Origin: Streptomyces daqingensis | Lineage (GTDB): Bacteria; Actinomycetota; Actinomycetes; Streptomycetales; Streptomycetaceae | Assembly: GCF_014645895.1 (NCBI RefSeq) | Contig: NZ_BMMP01000002.1 | Location: 434,001 to 498,000, forward strand | DNA length: 64,000 nt | Direction: 5' to 3' | Part shown: one piece after another, positions 51,406 to 58,185 of the stretch | Position numbering within the stretch: the first letter of the stretch is position 1 | Layout of the letters: every line of letters starts with the position of its first letter | The notes under the pieces: generated by a model | The model's database searches: none | Told to the model about the DNA's origin: nothing | Seen by the model: the letters and a program-made list of their open reading frames with translations, nothing else | Made by a program: the position numbers and the translations under genes

Positions 51406-53100
51406 CTACCGCTCGCCCGCCGCGCCCTCACCGGCCGCGGGTTGCTGCGGCTCCGCCACGGAGCCGTCCGAAGGTTCCGCGGCGGATCCCTGCTGCGGCA
51501 CGGCCTGCGGCTCCGCCACGGAGCCGTCCGGCGGTTCGGTCGCGGGGCTCTCCGGCGGTACGGCCCGCGTCAGCGCCACGTACAACAGCAGCGAACTGGC
51601 CATGCCCACGGCCCAGCCGTAGTCGGCGAGCGGCTTCAGGAAGGGGATCAGACCGTCGGCGGGGAAAGGCCCCTTGCCGGGCGCCGACCACGAGCCGCCG
51701 ACCGCCAGCAGCCCGCCCCCGGCGAACGCCGCCAGCGCCCGCCAGTTCCAGCCGGAGCCGTACCAGTAGGCGCCGCCCTCCCGGTAGAGGTCCGCGACCA
51801 GCAGACGGGTCCGCCGCAGCAGCCAGTAGTCGGCGATGAGGATGCCCGCGACGGTGCCGAGCAGCCCGCCGACGGTGCCCAGCCACGTGTAGATGTACAG
51901 CTCGGGCGTCTCGGTCAGCTTCCACGGCATGATGACGACGCCCACGACGCCCGTGACGAGCGCGCCCGTACGGAAGTTGATGAACCTCGGGGCGAGGTTC
52001 GCCAGGTCGTAGGCGGGTGAGACGACGTTCGCGGCGATGTTCACCGAGATCGTCGCCACGAGCACGGTGATCAGGGCGAACAGCAGGCCGAAGACGTTGT
52101 CCGTCTTGGCGGCGAGCTCGACCGGGTCCCAGATCGTCGCCCCGTATACGGCCTGCGAGCCGGCGGTGACGAACACCGACAGCAGCGCGAAGAGCGTCAT
52201 GGTCGTCGGCAGCCCCAGCGACTGGCCCCACACCTGGGCGCGCTGGCCGGCGCCGAAGCGGGTGAAGTCGGGGATGTTGAGCGACAGGGTGGACCAGAAG
52301 GCGATCATGCCCATGAGGGCCGGGAAGAAGACCGGCCAGAACTCGACGCCCCAGCCCAGCTCGGAGGGCTGGTCGAGCAGCGGCCCGAAGCCTCCCGCCT
52401 TCACCGCCATCCAGATCAGCAGGACGAACGCGCCGACGATGACGAAGGGCGCCGCCCAGTTCTCGAAGCGGCGCAGCGCCTCCATCCCCCGGTAGATGAT
52501 GGCCAGTTCGAGGGCCCAGAACAGCAGGAAGCAGACCCACAGCGTCCAGGGCTGCCCGCCGATCTGCGACGCGTCCTTCCATCCTCCGAACAGCTTCCCC
52601 AGCAGGATGAAGATGCCCTGCCCGCCGATCCACGTCTGGATGCCGAACCAGCAGCAGGCCACTGCGGCGCGGATCATCGCCGGCAGGTTGGCTCCGCGCA
52701 CGCCGAAGGAGGCGCGGGCGAACACGGGGAAGGGAATGCCGTACTTGGGCCCGGCGTGACCGGTCAGCAGCATCGGCAGCAGCACGATCACGTTCGCCAG
52801 GGCGATCGTGAACACGGCCTGCTTCCAGTCCATGCCGAGCGCAACCAGCCCCGAAGCGAGCAGCCAGGACGGGATGTTGTGCGCCATGCCGATCCACACG
52901 GCGGCGAAGTTGTAGGTGGTCCAGCGCCGTTGGGCGAGCGGCACCGGTCTGAGGTCGTCGTTGGTGTACCGGCCTCCGTCGGGTATGGCGCCCTCGGCGA
53001 GCTCCACCCGGCCGTCGGCGTGGGTGATCTGGTCGCCCGCCGGGCCGTCACCGGGAGCGCTCTGCGGTCCCGGTGCGGCGGCTGGAGCGGTCCCGGTCAT
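51406..53100 (-). CDS. NCS1-family nucleobase/hydantoin:cation symporter
   Basis: 564 residues from the ATG at 53100 (AGAGG upstream); a longer reading frame was rejected. About 12 membrane helices follow a 55-residue N-terminus. NCS1 motifs: PVPLAQRRWTTYNFAAVWIG at helix 1, HAGPKYGIPFPVFARASFGV and FGIQTWIGGQ, and NIPDFTRF. The C-terminal tail has a duplicated DGSVAEPQ segment from a DNA repeat. Such carriers import uracil, allantoin or hydantoins. Its position after dihydropyrimidinase genes points to a pyrimidine or hydantoin substrate. Confidence 0.9.
   Translation of the reverse strand: MTGTAPAAAPGPQSAPGDGPAGDQITHADGRVELAEGAIPDGGRYTNDDLRPVPLAQRRWTTYNFAAVWIGMAHNIPSWLLASGLVALGMDWKQAVFTIALANVIVLLPMLLTGHAGPKYGIPFPVFARASFGVRGANLPAMIRAAVACCWFGIQTWIGGQGIFILLGKLFGGWKDASQIGGQPWTLWVCFLLFWALELAIIYRGMEALRRFENWAAPFVIVGAFVLLIWMAVKAGGFGPLLDQPSELGWGVEFWPVFFPALMGMIAFWSTLSLNIPDFTRFGAGQRAQVWGQSLGLPTTMTLFALLSVFVTAGSQAVYGATIWDPVELAAKTDNVFGLLFALITVLVATISVNIAANVVSPAYDLANLAPRFINFRTGALVTGVVGVVIMPWKLTETPELYIYTWLGTVGGLLGTVAGILIADYWLLRRTRLLVADLYREGGAYWYGSGWNWRALAAFAGGGLLAVGGSWSAPGKGPFPADGLIPFLKPLADYGWAVGMASSLLLYVALTRAVPPESPATEPPDGSVAEPQAVPQQGSAAEPSDGSVAEPQQPAAGEGAAGER
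51445..51530. repeat. 60-bp-period direct repeat in the NCS1 gene tail
   Basis: Identical 26-base blocks start at 51445 and 51505 (CTGCGGCTCCGCCACGGAGC and onward). They encode DGSVAEPQ twice in the cytoplasmic C-terminal tail, where copy number could vary without harm. Confidence 0.7.
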
Positions 53101-53157
53101 GTGCACACACCTCTTCTGCTGGGTCGGTCCAGTGGGTGTCGCGTGTCGTGCAGCGCT

Positions 53158-53176
53158 CCCGGTGCCCGGCACCGGG
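53158..53176 (-). terminator. Short hairpin after the LLM oxidoreductase gene
   Basis: CCCGGTGC-CCG-GCACCGGG forms an eight-bp perfect stem 18 bases beyond the oxidoreductase stop and upstream of the NCS1 start, so it may partly separate the permease gene from the operon. Confidence 0.45.
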
Positions 53177-53193
53177 ACCGGGTCCGGGTCCGG

Positions 53194-54201
53194 TCAGGAA
53201 CCGGCGCCGAGTGCGGGGATGATCTCGCTCCCGTAGGCGTCGATGGTCGACTCCGTGGCATCGTGCATGGCGTACACCGCGAACTGGTCGACACCCAGTT
53301 CGCGGAGCTCCTTCAGCCGCTGCACGTGTGCCTCCGCCGGGCCCAGCAGGCAGAAGCGGTCGACGACCTCGTCGGGCACGAAGGCGGTGTCCGGGTTCCC
53401 GGCGCGGCCGTGGTGCGAGTAGTCGTAGCCCTGCCGGGCCTTGATGTAGTCGGTCAGCGCGGTGGGGACGAGGTCGGAGTTCTCTCCGTAGCGTTCGACG
53501 AGGTCGGCCACGTGGTTGCCGACCATGCCGCCGAACCAGCGGCACTGCTCCCGGGCGTGCGCGAGGTCGTCGCCGACGTAGGCGGGGGCGGCGACGCAGA
53601 TCGTGACCTCGTCGGGGTCGCGTCCGGCCTCGACGGCGGCGACGCGCACCGCCTTGACCATGTACTCCGTCAGATACGGGTCGGCGAGCTGCAGGATGAA
53701 GCCGTCCGCCTCGCGGCCGGCCATGGCCAGCGCCTTCGGCCCGTAAGCCCCCATCCACACCGGCAGCTTGCTGTCGCGCACCCACGGCAGCTTCACGGGC
53801 GTGCCGTCGAGGACGGCCTCGCGCCCCTCGGCCAGGTCGCGGATGACGGACATCGCCTCGCTGAGGCGGGCTAGGGTGTTCGGCTTCCGCCCGGCCACGC
53901 GCATCGCCGAGTCGCCGCGTCCGATGCCGCAGACGGTGCGGTTGCCGTACATCTCGTTGAGCGTGGCGAACGTCGAGGCGGTGACCTCCCACGAGCGGGT
54001 GCCCGGGTTGGTCACCATGGGACCGACGATCAGCTTCTCGGTGTTCTCCAGCACGCGGCTGTGGATGACGTACGGCTCCTGCCAGAGCACCGCCGAGTCG
54101 AACGTCCACCCGTAGCGGAAGCCGTTGCGTTCGGCGCGGCGCATGAGGCCGACGGTCCGGGAGCCGGGCGGGTCAGTCTGCAGTACGAGTCCGAAGTCCA
54201 T
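53194..54201 (-). CDS. LLM-class F420-dependent oxidoreductase (TIGR03842-like)
   Basis: 335 residues with an AAAGGA ribosome site. Luciferase-like TIM barrel: MDFGLVLQTDPPGSRTVGLM at the start, YGWTFDSAVLWQEPYV, IVGPMVTNPGTRSWEVTAS, VCGIGRGDSAMR, and GPKALAMAGREADGFILQLA. It fits a subgroup repeatedly found with dihydropyrimidinase genes (from memory, TIGR03842). It is fourth in the operon and starts 40 bases after the dihydropyrimidinase stop. The operon lacks a classical dihydropyrimidine dehydrogenase, so this enzyme could do the reductive first step with reduced F420 or FMN. That is a hypothesis. Confidence 0.85.
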   Translation of the reverse strand: MDFGLVLQTDPPGSRTVGLMRRAERNGFRYGWTFDSAVLWQEPYVIHSRVLENTEKLIVGPMVTNPGTRSWEVTASTFATLNEMYGNRTVCGIGRGDSAMRVAGRKPNTLARLSEAMSVIRDLAEGREAVLDGTPVKLPWVRDSKLPVWMGAYGPKALAMAGREADGFILQLADPYLTEYMVKAVRVAAVEAGRDPDEVTICVAAPAYVGDDLAHAREQCRWFGGMVGNHVADLVERYGENSDLVPTALTDYIKARQGYDYSHHGRAGNPDTAFVPDEVVDRFCLLGPAEAHVQRLKELRELGVDQFAVYAMHDATESTIDAYGSEIIPALGAGS

Positions 54202-54241
54202 GCCAGAGTCCTTTCGGTGTTTTGTTGTCCGGCTGCCGTGC

Positions 54242-55648
54242 TCAGTCCAGGAGTTGGCACAGACCGCGGGGGGTGTACTGGCCGTGCCCGGCCCGTCCCG
54301 CGTACGTACGGCGGTCGATGACGGTCTCGCCGCGCGAGAGCACCGTCTCCACCTGCCCGGTGATCTGCTTGCCCTCGTACGCCGAGTAGTCGACGTTCAT
54401 GTGGTGCGTCTCGGCGGACAGGGTCTGCCGGGCCTGCGGGTCGTAGATGACGACGTCGGCGTCCGAACCGGGCTGCAGGGTCCCCTTCTTGGGGTAGAGC
54501 CCGAACATGCGGGCCGGCGTGGCGCAGGCCAGCTCGATCCAGCGGCGCCGCGAGATGTGGCCGTCGAGGACCGCCTGGTGCAGCAGGTCCATGCGGTGCT
54601 CCACACCGGGCATGCCGTTTGGGATCTTCGAGAAGTCGCCCCGGCCCAGCTCCTTCTGGCCGACGAAGCAGAACGGGCAGTGGTCGGTCGAGACCACCTG
54701 CAGGTCGTCGGTGCGCAGGCCCCGCCACAGCGCCGCCTGGTGCTCCTTGGGCCGCAGCGGCGTGGAGCAGACGTACTTGGCGCCGCCGAAGTCCGGCTCC
54801 GCGAGGTTGTCCGTGGAGAGGAAGAGGTACTGCGGGCAGGTCTCCCCGAAGACGGGAAGGCCCTTGTCGCGCGCGGTCGCGAGCTCGGCGACGGCCTCCT
54901 CCGCGGACACGTGCACGACGTAGAGCGGCGAACCCGCCACGCGGGCCAGCTGGATGGCGCGGTGCGTGGCCTCGGCCTCCAGCAGCGCCTTGCGCACCTC
55001 GCCGTGGTAGCGGGGGTCGGTCCGGCCCGCGGCCAGGGCCTGTTCGACGAGGACGTCGATGGCGATGCCGTTCTCGGCGTGCATCATCGTCAGCGCCCCG
55101 TTGGAGGCGGTGCGCTGCATGGCGCGGAGGATCTGCCCGTCGTCGCTGTAGAAGACGCCCGGGTAGGCCATGAACATCTTGAAGGAGGTGATGCCCTCCT
55201 CCACCAGTATGTCCATCTCCTTGAGGGTGCCCTCGTTGACGTCGGAGAGGATCATGTGGAACGCGTAGTCGACGGAGCACTGGGCGTCGGCCTTCGCGTG
55301 CCAGCGGTCCAGCCCCTCGCGCAGGGCCTGGCCCTTGGTCTGCACGGCGAAGTCGACGATGGTGGTGGTGCCGCCCCAGGCCGCCGCCCGGGTGCCCGAC
55401 GCGAAGTCGTCGGAGGAGAAGGTGCCTCCGAAGGGGAAGTCCATGTGGGTGTGCGCGTCGACGCCGCCGGGGACGACGTACTTGCCGGAGGCGTCGATGG
55501 TGCGTTCCGCGTTCCAGCTCTCGGCGACGGTGCTGCCGCTCGCTGCGACCGCGACGACGCGGCCGTCCTCGATCAGGATGTCGGCGTGCGTCTCGTCGGC
55601 TGCCGTGATCACGAGACCGCCGCGAACTGCCGTACGGGTGTGCGTCAT
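54242..55648 (-). CDS. Dihydropyrimidinase / D-hydantoinase
   Basis: 468 residues. Binuclear metal site: VDAHTHMDFPFGG, the carboxylated Lys in ITSFKMFMAYPG, His in YVVHVSAEEA, and Asp in STDHCPF. It opens 5,6-dihydrouracil or hydantoins to N-carbamoyl-beta-amino acids. The ATG overlaps the aminotransferase stop (ATGA). It is followed by a beta-ureidopropionase-like step encoded at the operon head. The sequence does not settle whether dihydrouracil or a hydantoin is the true substrate. Confidence 0.92.
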   Translation of the reverse strand: MTHTRTAVRGGLVITAADETHADILIEDGRVVAVAASGSTVAESWNAERTIDASGKYVVPGGVDAHTHMDFPFGGTFSSDDFASGTRAAAWGGTTTIVDFAVQTKGQALREGLDRWHAKADAQCSVDYAFHMILSDVNEGTLKEMDILVEEGITSFKMFMAYPGVFYSDDGQILRAMQRTASNGALTMMHAENGIAIDVLVEQALAAGRTDPRYHGEVRKALLEAEATHRAIQLARVAGSPLYVVHVSAEEAVAELATARDKGLPVFGETCPQYLFLSTDNLAEPDFGGAKYVCSTPLRPKEHQAALWRGLRTDDLQVVSTDHCPFCFVGQKELGRGDFSKIPNGMPGVEHRMDLLHQAVLDGHISRRRWIELACATPARMFGLYPKKGTLQPGSDADVVIYDPQARQTLSAETHHMNVDYSAYEGKQITGQVETVLSRGETVIDRRTYAGRAGHGQYTPRGLCQLLD

Positions 55649-56994
55649 TGCGGGTTCTTCCCCTCCAGCTGAGTGTCTGCCGTGCGCAACGCGTGCTCCA
55701 GGATCTCGGCGCCCTCCTCCGCCTCCGCGACGGTCAGCGTCAGCGGCGGCGCCACCCGCAGGACGCTGCTGGTGGAGTGGCCGCCCCCCTTGCCGATGAG
55801 CAGCCCTCTCTCGCGGGCCAGTTCCTGCACCAGCGAGGCCGCCTCCGGCCACGGCTCGTCGGTGCCGTGACGTACGAGCTCGACACCGGCCATCAGGCCC
55901 CTGCCGCGCACCTCGCGAACGATGCCCAGCCCGGCCGCCGCCGCCCGCAGCCGCTCCAGCAGCAGCCCGCCGACCCGGCGCGCGTTGCCCTGGAGGTCGT
56001 GCTCCAGCAGGTAGTTGAGGTTGGCGTTGCCGGCGGCCATGGTCACGGGGCTGCCGCCGAAGGTGGAGATCGAGTTGGCCGGGAGGCAGTTCATGACCTC
56101 GGCGCGGGCGACGACGCCGCCGATCGACATGCCGTTGCCGATGCCCTTGGCGAAGGTGAGGATGTCGGGCGGTCCCGCCTGCGCGTGCGCCTGCCAGCCC
56201 CAGAAGTGCTCGCCGGTGCGGCCCCAGCCCGTCTGCACCTCGTCGCTGATCCACAACACGCCGCGCTCGCGCAGCACTTCGCGGAAGGCGGCGAGAAGCC
56301 CGTCGGGGCCGGAGGTGAACCCGCCCACGCCCTGCACGGGTTCGGCGATCAGAGCGGCCACGTCGCCCCCGGCCTGTCCGAGCATGTCGGCCAGGTCCTC
56401 GGTGCAGGCGTCGACGAACGCCGCGTCGTCGAGCTCGGCGAACGGTCCCCGGGTCCGCACGCCGCCGTGCACGTACAGCGTCTGGAGCGGCGAGAGGGAC
56501 GTCGGCGACCAGGACCGGTTCCCGGTGATGCCGATCGCCGAGAACGACCGCCCGTGGTAGCTGTTGCGCAGCGCCACGATCTGGTTCGAGCGGCGGTAGG
56601 TGGTGGCCAGCAGCAGGGCGGTGTCGTTGGCCTCCGTACCGGACGTGGTGAAGAAGACGCGGGCGTCCGGGATTCCGGACACCGCGGCGATGCGCTCCGC
56701 CAACTCCACCATGGGGCGGTCCAGATAGAGGCTGGAGGTGTGCAGGATGCGCTGCGCCTGCTCGCTGACGGCCTTGGTGACCTCGGGCAGCGCGTGCGCC
56801 GTCATGGTGGTGAGGATGCCGCCGAAGAAGTCGAGGTAGCGCTTGCCCTCGCTGTCCCAGACGTGCCGCCCCTCGCCGTGGGTGATCTCGATCGGCTCGT
56901 CGTAGTAGAGCGCGAGCCAGTCGGGCAGAACGGCGCGGTGGCGGTTGTGGAGCACCCTCGGCGAACCAGCCGGGTCGTGGTCCGCGGTGGTCAT
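55645..56994 (-). CDS. Class III aminotransferase (beta-alanine/omega-amino acid type)
   Basis: 449 residues from the ATG at 56994, which shares a base with the upstream stop. PLP motifs: TTSGTEANDTALLLAT, SYHGRSFSAIGITG, the Asp in LWISDEVQTGWGRTGEHF, and the Schiff-base Lys in TFAKGIGNGMSIGGVVA. In this operon it should convert beta-alanine or 3-aminoisobutyrate, the products of pyrimidine degradation, to the semialdehydes. The family also includes alanine-glyoxylate and GABA aminotransferases. Confidence 0.9.
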   Translation of the reverse strand: MTTADHDPAGSPRVLHNRHRAVLPDWLALYYDEPIEITHGEGRHVWDSEGKRYLDFFGGILTTMTAHALPEVTKAVSEQAQRILHTSSLYLDRPMVELAERIAAVSGIPDARVFFTTSGTEANDTALLLATTYRRSNQIVALRNSYHGRSFSAIGITGNRSWSPTSLSPLQTLYVHGGVRTRGPFAELDDAAFVDACTEDLADMLGQAGGDVAALIAEPVQGVGGFTSGPDGLLAAFREVLRERGVLWISDEVQTGWGRTGEHFWGWQAHAQAGPPDILTFAKGIGNGMSIGGVVARAEVMNCLPANSISTFGGSPVTMAAGNANLNYLLEHDLQGNARRVGGLLLERLRAAAAGLGIVREVRGRGLMAGVELVRHGTDEPWPEAASLVQELARERGLLIGKGGGHSTSSVLRVAPPLTLTVAEAEEGAEILEHALRTADTQLEGKNPQ

Positions 56995-57836
56995 CAGGGC
57001 TGCACCAGCCCGTCGTAGGCGTCGGGGCGGCGGTCGCGGTAGAAGGCCCACTGCTCACGGACCTCGTCGATCATGCCGAAGTCCAGGTCGCGTACGACGA
57101 GTTCCTCTTCCTTGTCGCTCGCGACGTCCCCGACGAACTGGCCGCGCGGGTCGACGAAGTAGCTGGTGCCGTAGAAGTCGTTGTCGCCGTACTCCTCCTG
57201 GCCGACACGGTTGATGGCCGCGACGAAGTACTCGTTCGCCACCGCCGCCGCGGGCTGTTCGAGCTGCCAGAGGTAGGAGGACAGGCCGCGGTGGGTGGCC
57301 GACGGGTTGTAGACGAGGTGAGCCCCGGCAAGGCCGAGGGCGCGCCAGCCCTCCGGGAAGTGCCGGTCGTAGCAGATGTAGACGCCGACCTTGCCGACCG
57401 CGGTGTCGAAGACCGGCCAGCCCAGGTTCCCCGGCTTGAAGTAGAACTTCTCCCAGAAGCCCTTGACCTGGGGGATGTGGTGCTTGCGGTACTTGCCGAG
57501 GTAAGAGCCGTCGGCGTCGATGACGGCGGCGGTGTTGAAGTAGAAGCCCGACTGCTCCTTCTCGAAGACGGGCACCACGATCACCATGCCGGTCTCCCGG
57601 GCGAGATCCTGCATCCGCCGCACCGTCGGCCCGTCCGGCACGGACTCCGCCCACTTGTAGTGCTCGGCGTCCTGGACCTGGCAGAAGTACGGGGCGTTGA
57701 AGACCTCCTGGAAGCCGATCACCTTGGCCCCCTGCCGGGCGGCCTCCCGCGCGTGCTGCTCGTGCTTCGCGATCATCGACTCGGTGTCGCCGGTCCACGT
57801 CGCCTGTACGAGTGCGGCGCGCACAACATCGGTCAT
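56994..57836 (-). CDS. Carbon-nitrogen hydrolase, probable beta-ureidopropionase
   Basis: 280 residues with an ideal AAAGGAG site. The nitrilase-superfamily triad is clear: E44 in FQEVFNAPY, K118 in KYRKHHIP, and C155 in YICYDRHFPEG. The product length and KHHIPQVKGFWEKFYF are close to N-carbamoylputrescine and beta-ureidopropionase amidases. In an operon with dihydropyrimidinase it most likely hydrolyses N-carbamoyl-beta-alanine to beta-alanine, ammonia and CO2. It is the first gene, driven by the promoter at 57900-57928. Confidence 0.88.
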   Translation of the reverse strand: MTDVVRAALVQATWTGDTESMIAKHEQHAREAARQGAKVIGFQEVFNAPYFCQVQDAEHYKWAESVPDGPTVRRMQDLARETGMVIVVPVFEKEQSGFYFNTAAVIDADGSYLGKYRKHHIPQVKGFWEKFYFKPGNLGWPVFDTAVGKVGVYICYDRHFPEGWRALGLAGAHLVYNPSATHRGLSSYLWQLEQPAAAVANEYFVAAINRVGQEEYGDNDFYGTSYFVDPRGQFVGDVASDKEEELVVRDLDFGMIDEVREQWAFYRDRRPDAYDGLVQP

Positions 57837-57899
57837 GAGCAGCTCCTTTGGGAGGGAGGTCAGGGCAATGCGACACGCGTAGATCCACGTGAGAATGTG

Positions 57900-57928
57900 A
57901 CCGTAGGTCCCGTCACGCACGGTGGCAA
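57900..57928 (-). promoter_or_regulatory. Promoter of the pyrimidine-type catabolic operon
   Basis: Minus-strand TTGCCA (57923-57928), a 17-base spacer, and TACGGT (57900-57905) lie about 65 bases before the amidohydrolase start. This -35 is identical to that of the peptide ABC operon. The rest of the 349-base gap (57837-58185) contains only the terminator at 58126-58159. Confidence 0.55.
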
Positions 57929-58125
57929 GGGCATCGACGTTAGGTCGCCCGATCGATCTTGTTTCCGGTCCGTGTCAAGACCGCGTGGCCTGCGCGGCCG
58001 GGCCCGACGGCCCTCCGACGCCGGGCCGGCCGGTACCGCGTCCCGTCGCGCCGCGGCCCGCGATGCAGGCGCCGGCGGACGGGGTGGGCTACCGGTGCGT
58101 CGCGGGAGACCGGCGCCACGTACAG

Positions 58126-58159
58126 CTGCGCCGCGGGCGGTGTCCCGCCCGCGGCGCAG
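58126..58159 (-). terminator. Terminator hairpin after the secreted gamma-glutamyltransferase gene
   Basis: CTGCGCCGCGGGCGG (58126-58140) and its reverse complement (58145-58159) form a perfect 15-bp stem with a four-base loop, 26 bases beyond the stop codon. Confidence 0.75.
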
Positions 58160-58185
58160 TCCAACTCTCGTCTCCAGACGCCCGG

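Follow-up and report, generated by a model that had tools for sequence, protein, structure and literature searches.

A proposed luciferase-like, F420-dependent reductase in place of PydA in a probable pyrimidine-degradation operon of Streptomyces daqingensis

Organization of the operon

The window considered here is a stretch of 64,000 nucleotides from Streptomyces daqingensis (RefSeq assembly GCF_014645895.1, contig NZ_BMMP01000002.1, positions 434,001 to 498,000 of the forward strand), and positions below count from its first letter. Its minus strand carries, from 57836 to 51406, an operon of five tightly packed genes that all point in one direction and encode, in order of transcription, an amidase, a class-III aminotransferase, a dihydropyrimidinase, a luciferase-like (LLM) oxidoreductase, and a nucleobase:cation symporter (NCS1) permease (Table 1). 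An earlier note, made from the letters alone, had placed these genes here and named their families, and both gene coordinates and family scores bear it out. We propose that the operon serves to import pyrimidine bases and to degrade them reductively, with the LLM protein acting as an F420H2-dependent uracil/thymine reductase that replaces PydA; from the sequence comparisons described below, we estimate the probability of this reading at about 80 per cent.

The ATG of the aminotransferase gene shares one base with the stop codon of the amidase gene, and the dihydropyrimidinase and aminotransferase genes overlap by 4 bp. The dihydropyrimidinase stop and the LLM start are separated by 40 bp, and the LLM and permease genes by 93 bp. 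The dihydropyrimidinase scores 565 bits on TIGR02033 (cut-off 393), which places the ring-opening family of the pathway within the operon; it is the sole TIGR02033 match in the genome at E ≤ 1e-110, and its best solved relatives are D-hydantoinases (1yny at the top) and the dihydropyrimidinase 3sfw. The permease scores 442 bits on TIGR00800 (cut-off 353) and also matches PF02133. For the aminotransferase, the best 25 of 69 matches include no NCBIfam model above its cut-off.

Table 1. Genes of the operon and the adjoining upstream region, in window coordinates.
Feature	Coordinates	Strand	Length	Family models	Assignment
Carbon-nitrogen hydrolase (first operon gene)	56994..57836	-	280 aa	PF00795	Likely β-ureidopropionase (N-carbamoyl-β-amino acid amidase)
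Class-III aminotransferase	55645..56994	-	449 aa	PF00202	Likely β-alanine / β-aminoisobutyrate transaminase
Dihydropyrimidinase/hydantoinase	54242..55648	-	468 aa	TIGR02033	
Luciferase-like (LLM) oxidoreductase	53194..54201	-	335 aa	TIGR03842	Proposed F420H2-dependent uracil/thymine reductase in PydA's place
NCS1 nucleobase:cation symporter	51406..53100	-	564 aa from ATG at 53100	TIGR00800, PF02133	Likely pyrimidine uptake
Intergenic stretch upstream of the operon	57837..58185	-			Presumed promoter region (sequence read)

The luciferase-like protein and its nearest relatives

The classical first enzyme of reductive pyrimidine degradation, PydA, is an FMN/Fe-S/FAD enzyme of the DHO_dh family. 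The sole Pfam match of the LLM protein is PF00296; it lacks the DHO_dh domain (PF01180) and hence does not qualify as a PydA or PreA. With 590 bits on TIGR03842 (curated cut-off 295), it is a member of a family that NCBI classes as 'hypoth_equivalog', that is, one without a known reaction. Among the residues invariant in 31 members of this family are W32, D35, S36, W40, V63-T64-N65, R95-G96-D97-S98, W222, F223, N229, H230, D260, Y261, and H264. The TIGR03842 tree, rooted at its midpoint only, has three main groups (plasmid and alphaproteobacterial sequences; families f46, f60, f15, and f20; and the remainder), and loci with a linked dihydropyrimidinase gene occur in all three.

The ten best sequence matches to the LLM protein in the PDB are all F420 enzymes, with the reductase Mer at the top (118 bits). 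In a comparison of the structure predicted by AlphaFold2 from 30 sequences (mean pLDDT of 92.2) to solved structures, the nearest fold was again that of F420-dependent Mer (Z 36.6, root mean square deviation 2.7, 318 residues aligned, 30 per cent identity). Mer entries occupy the top six places (Z 36.6 to 35.6) among the 50 entries listed and are followed by an F420-dependent alcohol dehydrogenase (33.4) and then by FGD1, FGD2, and glucose-6-phosphate dehydrogenases (31.5 to 29.4), so that the top 15 entries (Z 36.6 to 29.4) are all F420 enzymes and the predicted fold lies nearest to this group. The entries after this block are mainly FMN monooxygenases and luciferases (Z ≤ 27.7), with RutA among them (Z about 25). 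The last two of the 50, 9g64 and 9gnc, are again F420 entries (Z 24.0), and fold rank alone is therefore an imperfect guide to the cofactor. The LLM protein resembles Mer in fold and in nearest PDB sequence and would share its F420 hydride transfer, but it scores well below the cut-offs of two Mer family models (129 and 133 bits versus 349 and 276), is linked to a dihydropyrimidinase, and has a conserved block of its own (WF...V.NHV.D and YDY..H). The evolution of Mer and FGD is the subject of a separate study (PMC6279831).

These comparisons bear on the question of whether the LLM protein could instead be an FMN enzyme, whether a reductase or a ring-opening oxygenase of the RutA kind. RutA, an FMN oxygenase that opens the pyrimidine ring, has the luciferase-like fold in common with the LLM protein and acts on the kind of substrate that we propose for it, and two draft genomes that encode the LLM protein appear to lack F420 biosynthesis genes (see below). 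Nonetheless, RutA (TIGR03612) is absent from the 20 NCBIfam families that match the LLM protein at E ≤ 0.001, an F420-dependent enzyme is the nearest relative in both sequence and fold, the LLM gene of Leisingera and Paracoccus is attached to a full operon for F420 biosynthesis that includes npdG (see below), and a dihydropyrimidinase would be redundant after the RutA reaction. We rejected the RutA-like oxygenase on family score and fold ranking, and we regard the use of FMN in any form as highly improbable.

Classical enzymes and F420 genes in Actinomycetota genomes

The genome to which the window belongs (6.5 Mb, 99.98 per cent complete) was searched for a pydA gene outside the operon, as the earlier note had advised, and none was found: the single PF01180 gene at E ≤ 0.001 encodes the quinone-dependent dihydroorotate dehydrogenase PyrD, and PreA (NF006183) has no match at E ≤ 1e-60. 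RutA (cut-off 498 bits) has its best match at 78 bits, and this is not the LLM protein, so no rutA gene lies above the cut-off. The barbiturase of the oxidative pathway (PF09663) has no match in the genome, but the control genomes gave none either, so that this negative does not establish its absence. The genome does encode CofD (on C9, 416 bits) and the NADPH-dependent F420 reductase NpdG (on C35, 258 bits, cut-off 150).

Across 246 evenly drawn Actinomycetota genomes, proteins of TIGR03842 above the cut-off were present in 53, TIGR02033 in 75, CofD (E ≤ 1e-20) in 141, and PreA (E ≤ 1e-60) in only 2. The LLM protein and dihydropyrimidinase occur together in 50 genomes, the LLM protein alone in 3, dihydropyrimidinase alone in 25, and neither in 168 (Fisher P-value = 1.5e-29, uncorrected for relatedness); both are present in 32 of the 33 genera with the LLM protein, and their genes lie within 10 kb of each other in 40 of the 50 genomes that have both. 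None of the 246 genomes carries both the LLM protein and PreA. In genome G208, preA is located approximately 1.3 kb from a dihydropyrimidinase gene, and a classical cluster would therefore have been detected. CofD is encoded in 50 of the 53 genomes with the LLM protein versus 91 of the 193 without it; of the other three genomes with the LLM protein, G173 carries cofG.

Gene neighborhoods in Actinomycetota

Within Streptomycetaceae, we examined the best 80 of 579 related loci, including loci cut by contig ends, and identified the neighbors by tblastn. A dihydropyrimidinase gene was found in 76 of the 80, always on the strand of the LLM gene, and in 73 it lies less than 300 bp away, so the operon arrangement is not due to chance. 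The amidase (69/80) and the aminotransferase (67/80) are nearly as common, and the NCS1 permease was found in 35 loci.

A wider set took in the flanks of the LLM gene, to a maximum of about 8 kb each way, in 40 of the 55 genomes that match TIGR03842; four of these loci are from the genus of the window, and one (L158) is below the TIGR03842 cut-off. Here, dihydropyrimidinase is present in 32 of the 40 loci, a class-III aminotransferase in 24 (with identities down to ~30 per cent), NCS1 in 16, and methylmalonate-semialdehyde dehydrogenase (MMSDH) in 11. Candidate β-ureidopropionases are of the nitrilase type in 22 loci and of the M20 carbamoylase type in 14, with one or the other in 36; family scores confirmed three of the M20 and five of the MMSDH proteins. 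Because two unrelated β-ureidopropionase families interchange and MMSDH stands at the end of the route, the products are probably β-amino acids, which, from what is known of such pathways, would point to dihydropyrimidines and not to hydantoins as the ring-opening substrates. No npdG gene adjoins the LLM gene in any of the 80 Streptomycetaceae or 40 wider loci, so that in Actinomycetota the link to F420 rests on co-occurrence across genomes.

An NMT1/THI5-type ABC binding protein is encoded near the LLM gene in 13 of the 40 wider loci (for example, L134:10995-13783), and none of the 13 showed NCS1.

Plasmid-borne clusters in Proteobacteria

Proteobacteria were surveyed through plasmid records only. 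At E ≤ 1e-60, the LLM protein has matches in 12 records of the plasmid collection, of which 10 are from Leisingera, 1 from Paracoccus, and 1 from Streptomyces. The Leisingera and Paracoccus homologs score 506 and 503 bits on TIGR03842, respectively. On the two Leisingera plasmids that we read at length (one from L. caerulea and one from L. aquaemixtae), the genes are ordered cofG-cofH-cofD-cofC-cofE-npdG-LLM-TetR, and divergently from this block lie genes for the alpha and beta subunits of transhydrogenase (pntAB), an aminotransferase, a Zn-dependent (M20) hydrolase, hydA, and NCS1. In a third plasmid, cofC, npdG, LLM, and TetR stand in the same order within a short stretch. The Leisingera aminotransferase passes the cut-off of the ω-aminotransferase AptA (750 versus 500 bits). 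Members of the RutR family sense uracil and thymine, and the Leisingera TetR protein is RutR-like (PF08362), although its 194 bits on TIGR03613 fall below the cut-off of 368. A few genes away from the L. caerulea island lie genes annotated as sulfopyruvate decarboxylase comD/comE (L164:12301-13358).

Related hydA genes occur in 48 alphaproteobacterial plasmid records, and we examined the clusters in eight of them. In Qingshengfaniella, Roseinatronobacter, and Azospirillum, preA and a gene for an NAD(P)-dependent oxidoreductase, presumably PreT, lie near the genes for an M20 hydrolase, HydA, and a TetR protein. The TetR proteins of these three clusters are 43 to 52 per cent identical to that of Leisingera, and the M20 and HydA proteins of Qingshengfaniella are 74 per cent identical to their Leisingera counterparts. 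Because otherwise similar clusters carry one or the other, preA and the F420–LLM block swap places. Three further clusters encode a D-carbamoylase and have a hydantoin-type look; neither preA nor LLM is annotated in the stretch.

On plasmid p402633 of Paracoccus alcaliphilus (L159:4587-11002), a cofGHDCE-npdG-LLM block is followed by genes for an ABC transporter whose binding protein is of the NMT1 type. This protein is a distant relative (25 to 27 per cent identity) of the actinobacterial one and of those that adjoin hydA in four of the alphaproteobacterial clusters, and preA is present in two of these four. These similarities suggest that the NMT1-type transporter serves pyrimidine uptake.

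On plasmid pSBC2-6 of Caballeronia sp. SBC2, a truncated TIGR03842-like piece (L177:9001-9384; 75 per cent identical to the Leisingera protein over 128 residues) adjoins an M20 hydrolase gene, with genes for alanine dehydrogenase and the transhydrogenase beta subunit near it. It may be a remnant, in a betaproteobacterium, of an island related to that of Leisingera.

The LLM protein could instead be an F420-dependent reductase of another ring, such as hydantoin, an imidazolone, or a modified uracil, in an operon that does not serve uracil and thymine themselves. D-hydantoinases belong to TIGR02033, the only permease of known structure that matches ours carries hydantoins, and an LLM protein has been proposed as a yanthine reductase in uric acid clusters of Chloroflexota (PMC12507026). 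Yet neighboring MMSDH and an AptA-type ω-aminotransferase fit β-amino-acid products, a regulator resembling uracil- and thymine-sensing RutR adjoins the Leisingera LLM gene, and neither preA nor LLM is annotated in the three plasmid clusters whose hydA has a D-carbamoylase gene nearby. We consider reduction of another ring very unlikely, and on the grounds of the linked MMSDH and AptA-type aminotransferase and of the three D-carbamoylase clusters, we rejected a hydantoin pathway as the principal interpretation. The earlier note had also left room for a flavin-dependent or hydantoin-related route; both have lost ground to the F420 linkage and to MMSDH and ω-aminotransferase neighbors that suit β-amino-acid products.

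Alternatively, the LLM protein could act downstream, as an F420-dependent semialdehyde reductase that converts malonate semialdehyde to 3-hydroxypropionate, while an unrecognized enzyme encoded elsewhere reduces uracil. A 2019 study of an extended β-alanine pathway reportedly found that malonate semialdehyde is reduced. The solved relatives of the LLM protein include some F420-dependent alcohol dehydrogenases (1rhc, Z 33.4), and the extended pathway goes on from β-alanine, to judge from a title cited in PMC12507026. Such a role is very unlikely, given that the genome of the window has no PF01180 gene besides pyrD to supply the missing step, that 11 of the 40 wider loci link the LLM gene to MMSDH, which would compete for the semialdehyde, that the Leisingera F420–LLM block sits where the clusters of related bacteria have preA, and that Mer is nearer in fold than the alcohol dehydrogenase.

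Proposed pathway and evidence against it

The suggestion that an LLM/F420 enzyme stands in place of the classical dehydrogenase is thus supported by the lack of PydA and PreA in the genome, by the linkage of LLM and dihydropyrimidinase genes across many families, by the absence of any genome with both the LLM protein and PreA among the 246, by a predicted fold nearest to those of F420 enzymes, and by the Leisingera LLM gene, which ends an operon for F420 biosynthesis next to the other genes of the pathway. Taken together, the comparisons indicate that the operon very probably represents a real form of the reductive pyrimidine pathway, widespread and with a non-homologous first enzyme that depends on F420.

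In the proposed pathway, the NCS1 permease would take up uracil or thymine, and the TIGR03842 enzyme would transfer a hydride from F420H2 onto the 5,6-double bond, yielding dihydrouracil or dihydrothymine. Within the LLM barrel, the hydride would be delivered to C6 and a proton to C5. NpdG, whose gene lies in another part of the genome, would use NADPH to restore F420H2, so that the net reaction would be an NADPH-dependent reduction with F420 as the carrier; in Leisingera, the transhydrogenase could supply the NADPH. The dihydropyrimidinase, whose family membership is clear, would open the ring; the amidase, to judge from its family, would then release CO2, NH3, and β-alanine or β-aminoisobutyrate, and the aminotransferase would form malonate or methylmalonate semialdehyde. 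MMSDH, which is linked to the LLM gene in other lineages, would pass the semialdehydes on to acetyl-CoA or propionyl-CoA.

Several observations weigh against this pathway. Uracil and thymine as substrates of the LLM protein are deduced from its neighbors, and two of these neighbors are equivocal. The sole solved relative of the permease at E ≤ 0.001 is Mhp1, a hydantoin permease, and likeness to Mhp1 does not distinguish uracil from hydantoin transport. Judged by solved structures, the amidase is slightly nearer to N-carbamoylputrescine amidase than to β-ureidopropionase: its nearest match is the N-carbamoylputrescine amidohydrolase 5h8i (201 bits), followed by 2vhh (CG3027-PA, 183 bits), which we take to be the fly β-ureidopropionase, and the β-ureidopropionases 8pt4 and 6ftq score 174 and 173 bits. 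Its 263 bits on TIGR03381 (N-carbamoylputrescine amidase, AguB) are below the cut-off of 410, so it is not a member of that family. The operon presumably corresponds to SCO6412–6417 of S. coelicolor, with SCO6414 as the counterpart of the amidase. A transcriptome paper on S. coelicolor lists SCO6415 as a 'probable dihydropyrimidinase' and SCO6414 as a 'possible hydrolase', and another paper places SCO6414, by homology, in arginine catabolism.

The gene neighborhoods are also incomplete in places. An NCS1 gene was not found in 45 of the 80 Streptomycetaceae loci and MMSDH in none of them, and dihydropyrimidinase is not near the LLM gene in 4 of these 80 and in 8 of the 40 wider loci. On the P. 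alcaliphilus plasmid record, there is no dihydropyrimidinase gene at all; the rest of that pathway may reside on another replicon. Two of the eight alphaproteobacterial hydA clusters, those of Thalassospira and Sinorhizobium, have neither preA nor LLM in the stretch, from which it follows that a detached first step does occur.

At the level of whole genomes, three of the 53 with the LLM protein have no dihydropyrimidinase above the cut-off. Conversely, 24 of the 246 (for example, G012, G088, and G099) have TIGR02033 without either PreA or an LLM protein above the cut-off, and the presence of this family alone is therefore no proof of the pathway. Two draft genomes that encode the LLM protein, G119 (96 per cent complete) and G160 (81 per cent complete), show no cofD, cofE, or cofG. 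In G087 and G106, which belong to the same genera, a single contig holds both cofD and cofG within ~15 kb of each other, and the loss of one such contig could thus explain the missing genes.

Relation to known systems

The operon shares with the reductive pathway (PydA/PreTA–PydB–PydC–aminotransferase) the ring-opening family, a carbamoyl-hydrolyzing amidase family, an aminotransferase, and a nucleobase transporter, with steps that follow the order the chemistry requires, and a RutR-like regulator is common to the classical pathway and the Leisingera form. It differs in its first enzyme, which is a luciferase-like oxidoreductase of the F420 type instead of a DHO_dh/Fe-S flavoprotein. A study of ferredoxin-dependent PydA does not, in the part available, mention F420 (PMC7332683).

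A close parallel is the F420-dependent LLM 'yanthine reductase' of Chloroflexota, which was suggested from gene neighborhood in uric acid clusters (PMC12507026, published in 2025). Both proteins belong to PF00296, and both are proposed to replace PydA-type enzymes acting on a uracil-like ring, but the Chloroflexota enzyme is from a different phylum and pathway (uric acid degradation, with SsnA), and the likeness is at the level of PF00296. In the literature that we searched, which included few subscription papers and no bioRxiv preprints, we found no report of an F420-dependent LLM uracil/thymine reductase. The sections seen of a review of F420 (PMC8498797, published in 2021) describe its role in Alphaproteobacteria as thought to be 'minor or niche-specific' and in need of experiment, and they contain no mention of uracil, thymine, or hydantoin. 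An F420-minus Streptomyces venezuelae (fbiC deletion) is described as having no detectable defect on rich medium (PMC12282290).

Implications

If the proposed pathway is correct, an unrelated enzyme and cofactor would account for the way in which Streptomyces, like many other actinobacteria, could break down uracil and thymine without PydA, and TIGR03842, a named family of unassigned role, would acquire a function. What becomes of pyrimidine analogs, such as 5-fluorouracil, in soil actinobacteria may likewise depend on the pathway. For Alphaproteobacteria, it would address the question of the role of F420 that the part of PMC8498797 available leaves open. Because the LLM protein is present in 53 of the 246 Actinomycetota genomes and PreA in 2, we lean, by a modest degree, toward F420H2-dependent reduction as the principal way in which this phylum breaks down pyrimidines reductively, and likewise toward the complete F420 biosynthesis operon of some Rhodobacterales serving chiefly to supply the cofactor for this one reaction, which would answer what F420 is for in them. 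Given its recurrence in many actinobacteria and on Leisingera plasmids, the arrangement may represent a widespread and previously unnamed use of F420.

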